Assembly (NCBI GenBank): GCA_030038255.1
Contig: JASHPH010000045.1
Coordinates: forward strand, 1 to 44,009
DNA length: 44,009 nt
From: Candidatus Sulfotelmatobacter sp.
GTDB taxonomy: Bacteria; Acidobacteriota; Terriglobia; Terriglobales; Acidobacteriaceae
Reading direction: 5' to 3'
Translations under genes and position numbers: made by a program
Shown here: positions 4,774 to 37,466 of the stretch, piece after piece
Position numbering within the stretch: position 1 is the first letter of the stretch
Layout of the letters: every line of letters begins with the position of its first letter
Notes under the pieces: generated by a model
The model's input: the letters and a program-made list of their open reading frames with translations, nothing else
Told to the model about the DNA's origin: nothing
The model's database searches: none

Positions 4774-6282
4774 ATGGCCACGACTGCCCAAACTTCCGTC
4801 GCTGCCCACCCGAGGTTCGAACCCGTCATCGGGCTGGAAGTCCACGTTCAGTTGCTGACCGCGAGCAAAATCTTCTGCTCCTGCTCAACTCGCTTCGGCG
4901 CGCCGCCGAACACCAATGTCTGCCCGGTCTGCCTCGGCATGCCCGGCGCTTTGCCCGTGCTCAACAGGAAGGCCGTCGAGTTCGCGACTCTGGCGGCCAT
5001 GGTGCTGAACTGCCGCATCAACGAAACTTCCATCTTCGCGCGCAAGAATTATTTCTATCCTGACCTGCCCAAGGGATACCAGATTTCCCAGTACGACAAG
5101 CCCCTAGCCGAGCACGGCTACATCGAGATTCCGGCCGGCGGAGCCGGCACAAGCGCCGGCAGCAACGGCGGTAAACAGAAAAAGAAAATCGGCATCACCC
5201 GCGTGCACATGGAAGAAGACGCCGGCAAGAGCCTGCACGAAGGCTTCCCCGACTCCGACGAGAAAACCGCCATCGATCTCAACCGCACCGGCGTGCCCCT
5301 GGTCGAAATCGTCAGCGAGCCCGACATCGCCTCGCCCGACGAAGCCTACGAATACCTGACACGGCTGAAGGAAATCATCCTCTACACCGGCGTCAGCGAC
5401 TGCAACATGGAGGAAGGGTCGCTGCGTTGCGACGCCAACGTCAGCGTGCGGCCGCGCGGGCAGAACGAATTGGGCACCAAGACGGAAATAAAGAATGTCA
5501 ATTCCTTCCGCTTCATTCGCGAAGCGTTGGAATATGAAATCGGCCGCCAGATTGACGTCATCGAATCCGGCGGCAAGATCACGCAGGAAACCCGCCTCTA
5601 CAACGCGAACGAAGGCAAAACCTACGGCATGCGTTCAAAAGAGCAGGCTCACGATTATCGCTACTTCCCAGAGCCGGACCTGCTCCCGCTTGTAGTCGAT
5701 GAAAAGTGGCGCGCCGAAATCGCCCGCGCTTTGCCCGAACTGCCCGAGGCCCGCCGCGCCCGCATGGTCAAAGACTATGGCATCACCGAATACGACGCGC
5801 AGGTGCTGACCGTGTCGAAATCGCTGGCCGATCAATTCGAAGAAGCAGCCAAGGCGGCGAAGAATCCCAAGCGCGTCGCCAACCTGGTGCAGGGCGAATT
5901 GATGGGCCGCCTCAAGGCGAAAGGCATCGCGATCGAGCAGTCGCCGATCTCCATGCGCGGCGTGGCCGCTTCCGCCGATCTGGTCGAGTCCGGCACAATC
6001 TCGGGCAAGATGCTCAAGGACCTCTACGACCTGTCCTTCGAGCGCTCAAAAGATTTCCCAGTCGTCTATGAAGAAGAAGGCCGCCCACAGCAATCCACCG
6101 ACACGTCCACGCTCGAGAAGATCATCGATGAAATTCTCGCCGCCAATCCCAAGCAACTCGAGCAATACCGCACCGGCAAGAAAACCATGCTCGGCTTTTT
6201 CGTCGGCCAGGTCATGAAAGCGTCCAAAGGCCAGGCCAGCCCGCAGCTTGTCAACGAGTTGCTGACCAAGAAGCTGGGATAG
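4774..6282 (+). CDS. gatB: Aspartyl/glutamyl-tRNA amidotransferase subunit B
   Basis: GatB is the kinase/tRNA-binding subunit of GatCAB, which converts Glu-tRNA(Gln) and Asp-tRNA(Asn) to the amidated forms in the cytoplasm. IGLEVHVQL (about residues 19-27) and the Cys-rich [12 protein letters not shown]...CPVCLGMPG stretch match the zinc-containing cradle domain. The C-terminal YqeY-like tail is present (…[21 protein letters not shown]). Length 502 aa includes a Gly-rich insert near residues 120-135 ([18 protein letters not shown]). A TATAAT at 4758-4763 sits 10 nt before the ATG with no Shine-Dalgarno, so the leader is very short. gatA and gatC are not in the window. Confidence 0.96.
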
Positions 6283-6298
6283 ACCTGGATTGTGTGGC

Positions 6299-6317
6299 AC
6301 CGGGTCTTCGACCCGGT
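6299..6317. repeat. Palindrome after gatB (family D)
   Basis: A perfect hairpin with 8-bp arms, ACCGGGTC-TTC-GACCCGGT, 16 nt after the gatB stop and preceded by GTGTGG. The same GTGTGG...CCGGGTC design recurs at 7084-7116. It may act as a weak transcription stop or RNA-stabilising element; no T-tract follows. Confidence 0.6.
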
Positions 6318-6418
6318 CGGGCGGCTCGCAGGGCCGCTGTCACGTTGCAAGTACATGCCCAACCCATGACTTCAGTCATCTGATCCAGGCTTGGTCCGCG
6401 CGCTACGATGACCTTGTC

Positions 6419-11549: not shown

Positions 11550-13220
11550 TTACTCCGGGTTCAGGCTGTCGTACATCTTCCAAAGCTTGTCCGCGGTTGC
11601 ACGATAGATGACCCAGCCCGTGCCCGCGTCCGACGTTTCCTTGAACAGCAACTCGCCGCGCCCGTCGCCGTCGGCGTCGACCGCATCGACCAGTTCAAAC
11701 CGCGGCGTCAGGTCGAGATGGAATTTGTCGGTGATTCCGGAATAGAGCGGGCGCAGGTTGTTGTAGATGTCGGTTCGCGCCACCAGCATGATGGAGTATT
11801 GCACGTCGGAATAACCCGCCCCGGGCGTAGAGGGCGGCGGCATATGCGCCTCAGCGCTGAAAACGATGATGGGCTGATTGCTCATCCACAAATCGTAAGT
11901 CGTCATCTGCACGTTGCTCAGAATCGGCTCGGCAGCCTTCACGGCCTGAACGTGACGCGTCTGCGCGGCCGCTGCTTTCGGTGCGATCTTTTCCTTTGCC
12001 TGCGCATCCAGATACGCCTTGAGTTGCTGCTTGGCCAGCTCCGTGATCTGCTGGCGGCGTTCTCCTTCTTCGTCCTTGAGCCAGTCGAAGGTGAAGGCAT
12101 GCGGGCTCGGCCCGCCGGCGTCGGAAATGGCCGGAATGAACTGCACCGGCCCCTTGTCTGCCGTCGTCTCAGATTTTCCTGCCTTCGCCGGTGTCAGCCC
12201 TGGCTTGCTGTAACCCGGAAAGTCATCATCCGAAAAAGGCTGTGTGGGCTTGCCTCTGCGCAGCCGCGGACGATTCTCTTCTGTGGCCCCGCTATCGGAC
12301 TCCGGCGGCTTGGCCTCGGCTGCCTGAGTGACAGCAGGTTTGCCTTCTCCGCCTTGTGGTTGAGCTGATGGGGCTTGACCTGCCTGGCTTTGACCAGCTT
12401 GGCCCTGTGCCGATTTCGAATCGCTGGCCGGCGTGCTCGATCCCGCTTGCGCCGGTTCTTGACTGGGCGCTCCCGAACTCGCATCCTCGGCCGGCCGTTT
12501 CAGGCGCGGCGGCTCGTCACTCGAAGAAGATGATCCGCCAGACTGCGAAGAAACCTGCGGTGAAGAGGCAGTCGGAGCCGCAGAAGTAGCCTGCCCTGTC
12601 GAAGCTTGGCCGGAACTTTGGCCACCGGAAGCCTGCCCTCCGCCGGCCGCCGGCTGCGGATTCCGCGTCAGCCGCGGACGCTCATCGCTCGTGTCGAGGC
12701 CCTTCGGCACGTTTTCCGCCTTCACGGGCCCGTAGGGCTTCTCTGTTCCTGCCGGAACCCACGCCCCGGTTCCGATCCAGGGGTTCGGAGCGTTTGCGGC
12801 CGTGCTGTGTAGTGCGCTGCCGACCGTAAACAGTCCCTGCGAATTGCCCGTGCGCTCGACCTCATACACGGTGCCCGTCTCCAGCGCCATGGGCACCGGG
12901 TTGGCTTTGTACGCCGACGCATCCCAGAACTTGCCGTTGATCAGAATCGCGATCGGCACCAGCGACGCCTTGCCGTTTGCCGCCAACTGCAGAACCGCAA
13001 CCGCCCGCGGCCCGGCATCCTTCTTCCGCGGCACTTTCCGCTCGCCCGTGAAGATCTGCGGCCGCTCTTCCTGCGCCCGGCTCACCGCTCCCAGCGACAC
13101 CAGTGCCCCTGCCAGCGCCATGGCGCACACGCTCCGGTATAGAATCGTTCCGAACGGCGCCCGGCCCAAAGCGGCCTCAACGGCGTCACCGAAATTCCAT
13201 TTTTTTCGTGAGATTGCCAT
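11550..13220 (-). CDS. Secreted protein of unknown function with long low-complexity linker
   Basis: About 556 residues from the ATG at 13218-13220. An unusually long N-terminus ends in the hydrophobic segment CAMALAGALVSLGAVSRAQ. The folded part has a domain at about 60-170, then a Ser/Gln/Ala/Pro-rich linker of roughly 170 residues, including three repeats of the form (S)DE(R/P)PRL(K/R/T)R. A C-terminal domain contains DAVDADGDGRGELLF, an FG-GAP-like or calcium-loop-like Asp motif. A start at 13121 (MALAGALVSL, GGAG 10 nt upstream) is possible and would free an intergenic promoter for the divergent peroxiredoxin. With the longer start the two divergent start codons overlap. Function unknown. 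Confidence 0.75.
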   Translation of the reverse strand: MAISRKKWNFGDAVEAALGRAPFGTILYRSVCAMALAGALVSLGAVSRAQEERPQIFTGERKVPRKKDAGPRAVAVLQLAANGKASLVPIAILINGKFWDASAYKANPVPMALETGTVYEVERTGNSQGLFTVGSALHSTAANAPNPWIGTGAWVPAGTEKPYGPVKAENVPKGLDTSDERPRLTRNPQPAAGGGQASGGQSSGQASTGQATSAAPTASSPQVSSQSGGSSSSSDEPPRLKRPAEDASSGAPSQEPAQAGSSTPASDSKSAQGQAGQSQAGQAPSAQPQGGEGKPAVTQAAEAKPPESDSGATEENRPRLRRGKPTQPFSDDDFPGYSKPGLTPAKAGKSETTADKGPVQFIPAISDAGGPSPHAFTFDWLKDEEGERRQQITELAKQQLKAYLDAQAKEKIAPKAAAAQTRHVQAVKAAEPILSNVQMTTYDLWMSNQPIIVFSAEAHMPPPSTPGAGYSDVQYSIMLVARTDIYNNLRPLYSGITDKFHLDLTPRFELVDAVDADGDGRGELLFKETSDAGTGWVIYRATADKLWKMYDSLNPE

Positions 13221-13692
13221 GCATATCAATGATAAAGCTCCCGACTTCGCTTTGCAGGATGAAAACGGCAAAGAAGTCAAGCTGAAAGACTTTCGCGGCA
13301 AAACTGTCATTCTCTTTTTCTATCCCAAGGCCAACACACCCGGTTGAACCGTAGAAGCTCGCGGGTTCCGCGATTCATACAAACAGATTCAAAAAACCGG
13401 CGCCGTGCTGCTTGGCATCTCCGCCGATACATCGAAGGCGCAGAAGAGTTTCGCCGAAAAAAACGACCTTCCGTTCACCCTGCTGGCCGACGCCGACAAG
13501 AAAGTTGCCGAAGCCTACGGCGTGATGAAAGAGAAGAACATGTACGGCAAGAAAGTCTGGGGCATTGCGCGGACCACGTTCGTCATCGGCCCCGACGGCA
13601 AAATTCAGCACATCTTCGAAAAGGTCAATCCTGACAGCCATGCCGAGGAAGTGCTTGCGTATCTGAAGGAATCGTCGAAAGGCGTGGCGTAA
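13219..13692 (+). CDS. bcp: Selenocysteine-containing Bcp-type peroxiredoxin (TGA recoded)
   Basis: Bcp/PrxQ peroxiredoxins reduce hydroperoxides with a Cys in the TPGCT motif. Here the frame reads ...FFYPKANTPG, then TGA (13345-13347), then TVEARGFRDSYKQ, and continues in the same frame to the TAA at 13692. The result is a normal-length protein of 157 residues if the TGA is residue 43. The TGA sits exactly at the peroxidatic Cys. There is no Cys anywhere else: the usual resolving-Cys position five residues later is Arg48. A hairpin with bacterial SECIS geometry follows (13354-13376). I therefore call it a selenoprotein. Alternatives are a TGC-to-TGA substitution or sequencing error. The Sec insertion genes (selA, selB, selC, selD) are not in the window. 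Standard gene callers would report only one fragment. Confidence 0.85.
13354..13376 (+). promoter_or_regulatory. Candidate bacterial SECIS element
   Basis: Directly after the in-frame TGA the mRNA can fold as GAA-[GC bulge]-UCGCGG-(GUU loop)-CCGCGA-UUC. This gives a perfect 6-bp upper stem, a 2-nt bulge and a 3-bp lower stem. There are 17 nt between the UGA and the apical loop, and the first loop base is G followed by U. These features agree with the known bacterial SECIS model (short stem-loop just downstream of UGA, loop G near the start, spacing of roughly 16-37 nt). Confidence 0.75.
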
Positions 13693-29220: not shown

Positions 29221-29406
29221 GGACAGCCGCCCTCGGCTGTCCGGTCGAGGGAAGCTCGACGGGCTTCGACTGGCTCCCGATGCCGCTGCGCTCGGGCCGG
29301 AGCATCAGCCGGCAATCCCAGCCGCGAAGCGGCGGAATGTGAAAGCCCGGCACGGCAGTGCCGGGTAAGGCGCGAACAGGAAAACGAGTCCCGCAAGGGA
29401 CGGCAC
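29221..29406. repeat. Composite repeats, family B copy 2 and family A copy 2
   Basis: GGACAGCCG-CCCT-CGGCTGTCC (29221-29242, perfect 9-bp arms) followed by CGGTCGAG. The family A element is at 29317-29406 with core CCCGGCAC-GGCA-GTGCCGGG (29346-29365) and the closing GAGTCCCGCAAGGGACGGCAC. The whole gap from 29180 to 29546 is filled by these repeats and holds no gene. Confidence 0.8.
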
Positions 29407-37344: not shown

Positions 37345-37466
37345 CCAGCCGCGAAGCGGCGGGATGCGAAAGCCCGGCACGGCAGTGCCGGGTCGATGTC
37401 GTAAGAACTAATAAGTCCCGCAGAGCCTGCCCTGAGCAAGCGCAGCGCGTCGAAGGGGACGGCACA
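37345..37466. repeat. Composite palindromic repeat (family A, copy 3)
   Basis: GCCAGCCGCGAAGCGGCGGG, core CCCGGCAC-GGCA-GTGCCGGG (37373-37392), and a closing GTCCCGCA...GGGGACGGCAC. The closing block is split by an extra GAGCCTGCCCTGAGC...GTCGAAGG segment, which itself looks like another common intergenic repeat nested inside. Confidence 0.8.

Follow-up and report, generated by a model that had tools for sequence, protein, structure and literature searches.

A Bcp/PrxQ-type gene with an in-frame TGA

The window (the whole 44,009-nucleotide stretch of DNA that was analysed, from the genome of a soil acidobacterium, Candidatus Sulfotelmatobacter) carries a gene for a Bcp/PrxQ-type peroxiredoxin in which a TGA codon occupies the peroxidatic position and a SECIS-like hairpin follows just downstream. 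The features of the gene are these:

13219..13692, plus strand: Bcp/PrxQ-type selenoperoxiredoxin gene, 157 residues with one predicted selenocysteine (Sec) and no Cys, assigned by PF00578, NF006960 and fold
13324..13347, plus strand: active-site motif P-K-A-N-T-P-G-U (residues 36-43; PxxxTxxU), from translation and alignment
13345..13347, plus strand: in-frame TGA, codon 43, at the peroxidatic position, read as selenocysteine from translation and orthologues
13357..13359, plus strand: codon 47 (GCT, Ala), a synonymous choice whose last U pairs with the A at 13373
13359..13373, plus strand: predicted bacterial SECIS hairpin with a 6-bp stem (13359-13364 / 13368-13373)
13360..13362, plus strand: codon 48 (CGC, Arg), the resolving-Cys site, inside the 5' arm of the SECIS
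13365..13367, plus strand: apical GUU loop, first base G, separated from the UGA by 17 nt
13570..13572, plus strand: codon 118, Arg, invariant in the alignment

When positions 13219-13692 are translated with the TGA as a residue, the product is a protein of 157 amino acids with a single TGA at codon 43, no Cys at all, and Arg at residue 48. This agrees with an earlier sequence-only reading of the locus, which had described a frame interrupted by exactly one TGA at the peroxidatic Cys, continuing to a full-length Bcp, with Arg at the resolving position and no other Cys. The protein matches the Pfam AhpC-TSA family (PF00578) at 150.8 bits and the NCBIfam model for thioredoxin-dependent thiol peroxidases (NF006960) at 169.1 bits against a cut-off of 140, and an alignment of 41 sequences shows no variation at P36, T40, position 43 or R118. 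It thus has the features of a Bcp/PrxQ protein, namely the AhpC/TSA domain, the PxxxTxx(C/U) motif and the active-site Arg, which we take to be Arg118. An AF2 model computed with Cys in place of Sec has a mean pLDDT of 95.1, its best structural matches are Bcp/PrxQ proteins (9a4d_B, TM 0.95; 5enu_A, TM 0.91), and a single helix (residues 41-59) holds both positions 43 and 48.

Compared with Cys-type Bcp/PrxQ (NF006960; 9a4d, 5enu, 3gkm, 5iiz), the window protein shares the fold (TM 0.87-0.95) together with P36, T40 and R118, but it has Sec where those proteins have the peroxidatic Cys, and it has Cys nowhere. Since residue 48 is Arg and the whole protein, +5 included, is devoid of Cys, it falls outside the two-Cys (resolving) Bcp proteins. 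The PrxU-type peroxiredoxin model NF040737 is also matched, but at 65.4 bits against a cut-off of 270, and the protein therefore lies outside that group. PrxU, from which the NF040737 type is named, is a Eubacterium acidaminophilum enzyme. Elsewhere in the window, Acido-Lenti-1 RNA matches lie on the minus strand at 29320-29365 (52 bits) and 37347-37392 (48.1 bits).

The TGA codon and the selenocysteine machinery

The state of codon 43 was read in relatives of the gene, of which the best-matching named ones are Candidatus Sulfotelmatobacter and Acidobacteriaceae MAGs (Acidobacteriota). Within the genus, 40 of 45 genomes matched at E 1e-40 and gave 41 copies, all of which were read: 16 copies have TGA, all with Arg48 and entirely free of Cys, and 25 have TGC, all with Cys48. 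Within the family, 197 of 200 genomes had a match and 130 loci were read, one per genome. This family sample holds every TGA row among the matches listed and leaves aside about 20 listed stop-free rows and all unlisted weaker matches, so that its 58 TGA forms out of 130 are not a frequency; two of the unlisted weaker matches (in G109 and G055) were later found to have TGA with Ser48. Among the 58 TGA forms, 39 have Cys48, 10 Ser48 and 9 Arg48, and nine are wholly Cys-free; the 72 forms with a Cys codon have Cys48 in 71 cases and Ser48 in one. Of the 66 genus codes read, 34 include Sec forms and four genera are mixed; beyond the family TGA is found at codon 43 in G408 (L339) and in L285, from a Terriglobia MAG.

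The TGA forms thus have an in-frame TGA where homologues have Cys (58 TGA against 72 Cys codons at codon 43), and every homologue read has either Cys or TGA at exactly this codon, the comparison that the earlier reading had proposed. None of the 58 family TGA frames has a stop ahead of codon 43, and the next stop lies 107-115 residues past the TGA in 57 of them, the remaining one being cut by a contig end. The 16 genus TGA frames likewise have no stop before codon 43, and their next stop comes 112-115 residues on. Since the TGA falls at the same codon in orthologues, with no earlier stop and with the next stop at the C-terminal end, it is not a chance occurrence. Candidate extra stops beside the TGA (TAG, TAA or a second TGA) were rejected, being terminal stops in the 130 loci read.

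The window comes from a metagenome-assembled genome (5.1 Mb in 423 contigs, 94.76% complete and 5.16% contaminated), and such an origin lends some weight to the idea that the gene is a pseudogene or that the TGA arose as a mistake of sequencing or assembly. We consider this extremely improbable, because the TGA is shared by the 16 genus copies and the 58 family orthologues in frames that are otherwise intact, with no break elsewhere of the kind that would mark a decaying gene, and because the codons past it are conserved. Over the 12 of the 16 genus Sec-form genes whose alignment starts at residue 1 and spans 157 residues, the codons after the TGA (56-157) have a median dN/dS of 0.072, with dS finite in 63 of 66 pairs, and those before it (1-42) one of 0.106, with dS finite in 60 of 66. 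The sequence following the TGA is under purifying selection.

The selenocysteine genes that the earlier reading had asked for (selA, selB, selC and selD) were all found in the window genome (G000). SelB is above its cut-off at 352.5 bits, selA scores 553.3 bits, and selD scores 352.6 bits across two pieces. The selD frame (L020, contig C358) itself contains a TGA (AAG-TGA-ASKLSP), and SelD is therefore probably a selenoprotein here. A further SelB candidate on contig C11 was rejected because it scores below the cut-off (153 bits); all 14 control genomes match the model and only 2 exceed the cut-off. There are two tRNA-Sec genes, both with anticodon tca (UCA): L010 on C230 is identical at 96 of 98 bases to that of the nearest relative, G190, whereas L009 on C247 agrees with it at only 79 of 98 and differs from those of the genus. 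The C247 copy may therefore be foreign DNA in the bin, and with these identities the two were not taken as a duplication of selC. Some 400 bases separate the C230 tRNA-Sec from a peroxiredoxin-like gene (L028).

SelA is present in 117 of the 200 family genomes, and in 57 of the 58 genomes with a TGA form versus 41 of the 72 with a Cys form. The one exception counts against the selenoprotein reading: G120 has a TGA gene yet no selA match even at E 0.001, and its genus mate G075 has both. A tRNA-Sec was found in 16 of 19 genomes searched, the best in each being tca; G161, G144 and G119 gave none at E 1e-8, and G161 among them has selA. In many relatives (several genomes with genus codes g1 and g27) the best match to the selA model runs only from about position 139 to 454, in a frame of about 500 amino acids, and the N-terminal part seems divergent; the window genome and G190 match over the full length.

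Read-through of UGA occurs in bacteria, and the codon might on that ground be a genuine terminator at which some other amino acid is occasionally put in by read-through or suppression, giving for example a Trp or Cys form. The position of the TGA at the catalytic Cys, the near-constant company of selA, the tca tRNA-Sec genes and a SECIS-like hairpin that tracks the TGA all make this very improbable. We regard it instead as very likely that the product is a genuine selenoprotein, namely a Bcp/PrxQ peroxidase with Sec43, and that the UGA would be read by SelB with Sec-tRNA(UCA) owing to the hairpin just downstream, as the conservation and register of that hairpin support.

The predicted SECIS hairpin and the codon of the resolving Cys

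The hairpin consists of a UCGCGG/CCGCGA stem closed by a GUU loop, placed 11 nt (stem) and 17 nt (loop) after the UGA, with a predicted energy of -8.0 kcal/mol alone and -11.3 kcal/mol with a lower helix, which contains a bulge. The bacterial SECIS model, as outlined in PMC13188914, has a loop of 3-9 nt, a stem of 4-16 bp, a G in the first two loop positions, a spacing of 16-37 nt and a minimum free energy of at most -7.5. The window element, with its 3-nt GUU loop, 6 bp, 17 nt and -8.0 kcal/mol, lies within these bounds, which bears out the earlier description of a perfect 6-bp stem with a GUU loop and a bulge that follows the SECIS model; the 17 nt given there is the distance from UGA to loop.

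To the orthologues we added 11 phylum-search loci (picked partly for listed stops) and two named loci picked for their TGA (L285 and L287), the other 78 of the 80 named loci (some from the same genomes) being excluded, which gave 74 TGA forms and 102 Cys forms. A strict version of the published constraints, which demands four unbroken pairs, is passed by 61 of the 74 TGA forms and 26 of the 102 Cys forms; of the 13 TGA forms that fail, 11 have Ser48 and a stem interrupted by a bulge behind its third pair. In the minimum-energy fold, the GUU loop sits at positions 18-20 (counted from the first base after the UGA) in 54 of 58 TGA forms versus 6 of 72 Cys forms. Most Sec forms therefore retain the hairpin and most Cys forms lack it, as the earlier reading had asked to be checked.

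Energy was not decisive as proof of the hairpin: against synonymous shuffles the window element is not exceptional (p = 0.32), and the mean z of -1.0 for 58 TGA forms versus -0.12 for 72 Cys forms is a mild excess. The evidence for the hairpin is its position and register, not its energy. Two TGA forms with Cys48 (L151 and L152, genus code g54) have no GUU stem at +18, and folding predicts for them an alternative, longer hairpin downstream, possibly of another SECIS class.

Because codon 48 lies within the stem, its identity can be compared with the pairing, and three registers are seen. In the Cys48 register (GCG UGC GGG UUC CGC GAC) the pairs involve positions 10-13 and 14-17 with one bulged G, and all eight pairs form in 37 of 39 Sec forms with Cys48. 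In the Ser48 register (mostly UCC, with CGU at 51) the bulge is shifted by one, and all eight pairs form in 6 of 10. The incomplete models (2 of 39 and 4 of 10) were counted against the scheme. In the Arg48 register (GCU CGC) there are six unbulged pairs (12-17/21-26), complete in 9 of 9 family members and in 13 of 16 genus forms, where L190, L296 and L297 are without the outermost pair. Among Cys43/Cys48 forms (n = 71) a whole Cys-type stem is found in 4 and a whole Arg-type stem in 3.

The neighbouring codons vary with the register. Codon 47 is GCT in 18 of 21 TGA forms with Arg or His48 and GCG in 48 of 53 with Cys or Ser48 (74 TGA forms), so that it is a synonymous choice that follows the register, Arg48 occurring mostly with the GCU that closes the stem. 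Codons 49-50 are GGG-TTC in 66 of the same 74 forms and GAG-TTT in 5, and the latter therefore swap a G-C pair for an A-U pair. Over 22 Arg-type sequences, 97.7% of cells are paired and two pairs are changed on both sides, a number of doubly changed pairs reached in 2 of 500 shuffles; both pairs come from one sequence, L285, which has His48 for Arg48. A control with partners slid by +3 columns gave a covariation of 0.097 versus 0.076 for the structure, and 3 doubly changed pairs, with only 34.8% of cells paired.

As for the chemistry, Sec43 would attack and reduce the peroxide. In related Cys enzymes, Cys43 and Cys48 are presumably joined by a disulfide within the protein; the window protein has no second Cys and would for that reason need an external reductant, the oxidised selenium probably being reduced directly by an outside thiol or a thioredoxin-like protein. 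Sec at 43 appears to relax the need for the resolving Cys48, and the residue that takes its place (Arg, Ser or His) would be one with a stem-compatible codon, aided by synonymous changes at Ala47, its choice being limited because codon 48 lies in the SECIS stem.

Switches between Sec and Cys, and comparison with known families

The genus gene has two states, Sec43/Arg48 and Cys43/Cys48, with at least three changes between them on the trees built. The genus Bcp tree (145 columns, quick method) has three Sec/Cys changes, all forced by starred branches, and the GatB gene tree (30 of 45 genus genomes) needs five, three of them forced; a single Sec clade is rejected on the GatB tree (AU p 1.6e-7). 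The gene and gatB share a contig, about 2.5-7 kb apart, in several genomes of either state, with Sec in G000, G190, G220 and G222 and with Cys in G218, G200, G228, G214 and G207, so that at least part of the switch took place at a single locus. In some other genomes, G006, G161 and G204 among them, the Cys copy and gatB are on different contigs. In the window, ARAGORN called a 94-base tRNA-Glu at 6272-6365 (plus strand) that overlaps the gatB end and is probably a false call.

The wider set of 163 orthologues, whose tree contains no phylum-search or named-locus additions, shows 13 Sec/Cys changes on its best tree and divides into 39 Sec/Cys48, 30 Sec/not-Cys48, 93 Cys/Cys48 and 1 Cys/not-Cys48 forms. 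The resolving Cys is therefore missing from 30 of 69 Sec forms versus 1 of 94 Cys forms. The SECIS codons GGG-TTC persist in three members (L084, L091 and L204) of the set of 102 Cys forms. In the tree a starred branch unites L204 with two Sec forms, and its stem is only a weakened one (-6.1 kcal/mol); L091 joins one Sec form at 93 and has a complete Cys-type stem; L084 (genome G139), grouped at 94 with two Sec forms and a single Cys form, has Cys43, Ser48 and a complete Ser-type stem. These SECIS relics, together with places in the tree near Sec forms, suggest that the three are recent Sec-to-Cys returns, and L084 looks as if caught just after its return. A reading of L084 as a Sec protein translated at UGC (its codon 43 is TGC) was rejected, as the tRNA-Sec found in its genome is tca.

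We tentatively propose, as a possible though doubtful reading, that the SECIS has steered the protein, residue 48 (Arg, Ser or His) being chosen largely by the codon that closes the stem, with three interchangeable registers and with returns to Cys that leave SECIS fossils, because the resolving-Cys codon sits in the stem and Sec would have made Cys48 dispensable. That the SECIS limits the residues allowed at 48 is put forward here as a hypothesis from the register pattern. Sec could instead be inserted while the loss of Cys48 is unrelated to it, having drifted in a few lineages with registers that reflect shared descent. Cys43 Bcp proteins without a +5 Cys do exist, in Burkholderia (5enu) and Xanthomonas (5iph) by alignment and, outside the family, among the 74 Cys-codon rows of a named and phylum set (91 rows, 17 TGA), where L289 (Thermoanaerobacter) has Val48 and L347 has Ile48; a Cys form without the +5 Cys is therefore possible. 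The independent events are also few, and a sign test on independent pairs for Sec with Cys48 loss was not significant (5 supported pairs only, median p 0.25). We nonetheless consider such drift unlikely, because the loss is so unevenly divided between Sec and Cys forms, because the sole Cys exception, L084, carries a complete Ser-type stem, and because Sec forms without Cys48 are spread over 11 of the 34 TGA genera.

As far as the literature was searched, the protein is a variant within a known family and not a new kind, described Sec peroxiredoxins being compared by description only; what is unusual is that Cys is absent altogether and that this absence is linked to the hairpin, and the recurrent switching between Sec and Cys and the location of the resolving codon inside the SECIS appear to be new. 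A likeness can be drawn to glutathione peroxidases, a different family, in which the Sec forms likewise have no resolving Cys and the Cys forms have one that works with thioredoxin. The eukaryotic SECIS sits in the 3' UTR and therefore cannot constrain a resolving codon.

The earlier remark that selenoprotein peroxiredoxins are already known is well founded: a Sec-containing Bcp (COG1225, TxxU) is a listed bacterial selenoprotein family (PMC9312934, PMC1088965). The window gene shares with it the domain, the TxxU motif (here T40-P-G-U43), Sec at the peroxidatic site and a SECIS just downstream (PMC9312934, PMC1088965, PMC13188914), but in the portions of these papers that describe COG1225 there is no mention of Cys-free members, of Sec-linked loss of the resolving Cys or of SECIS register changes. 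A search of open-licence literature by title and abstract start returned nothing about bacterial Sec-Bcp proteins free of Cys or about a link in bacteria between Sec and the disappearance of the resolving Cys. For peroxiredoxins, Table 1 of PMC1794560 gives 5 Cys-to-Sec and no Sec-to-Cys events, whereas the relics described here suggest Sec-to-Cys; the same paper reports SECIS remnants in other families. For Acidobacteria, Table 2 of that paper counts 4 selenoproteins in 3 families, and PMC12013277 gives 3 for Occallatibacter riparius; these counts, in the parts available, come without names, and a Sec-Bcp of the phylum may therefore be among them.

With Sec43/Arg48 and Cys43/Cys48 in one gene and one genus, the system is a natural experiment on what selenium buys, and lets one ask whether Sec makes a resolving Cys unnecessary; it also bears on how an RNA element within a coding sequence limits protein evolution. 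Gene calling based on stops would truncate such genes. In the window genome a second peroxiredoxin (L036, contig C203, first ~400 bases, minus strand) has a TGA in ...AFTGG-TGA-TKQMQ, is cut by the contig end and is probably secreted, and contig C176 (L034), with no overlap shown between the two contig ends, begins with a C-terminal peroxiredoxin piece.
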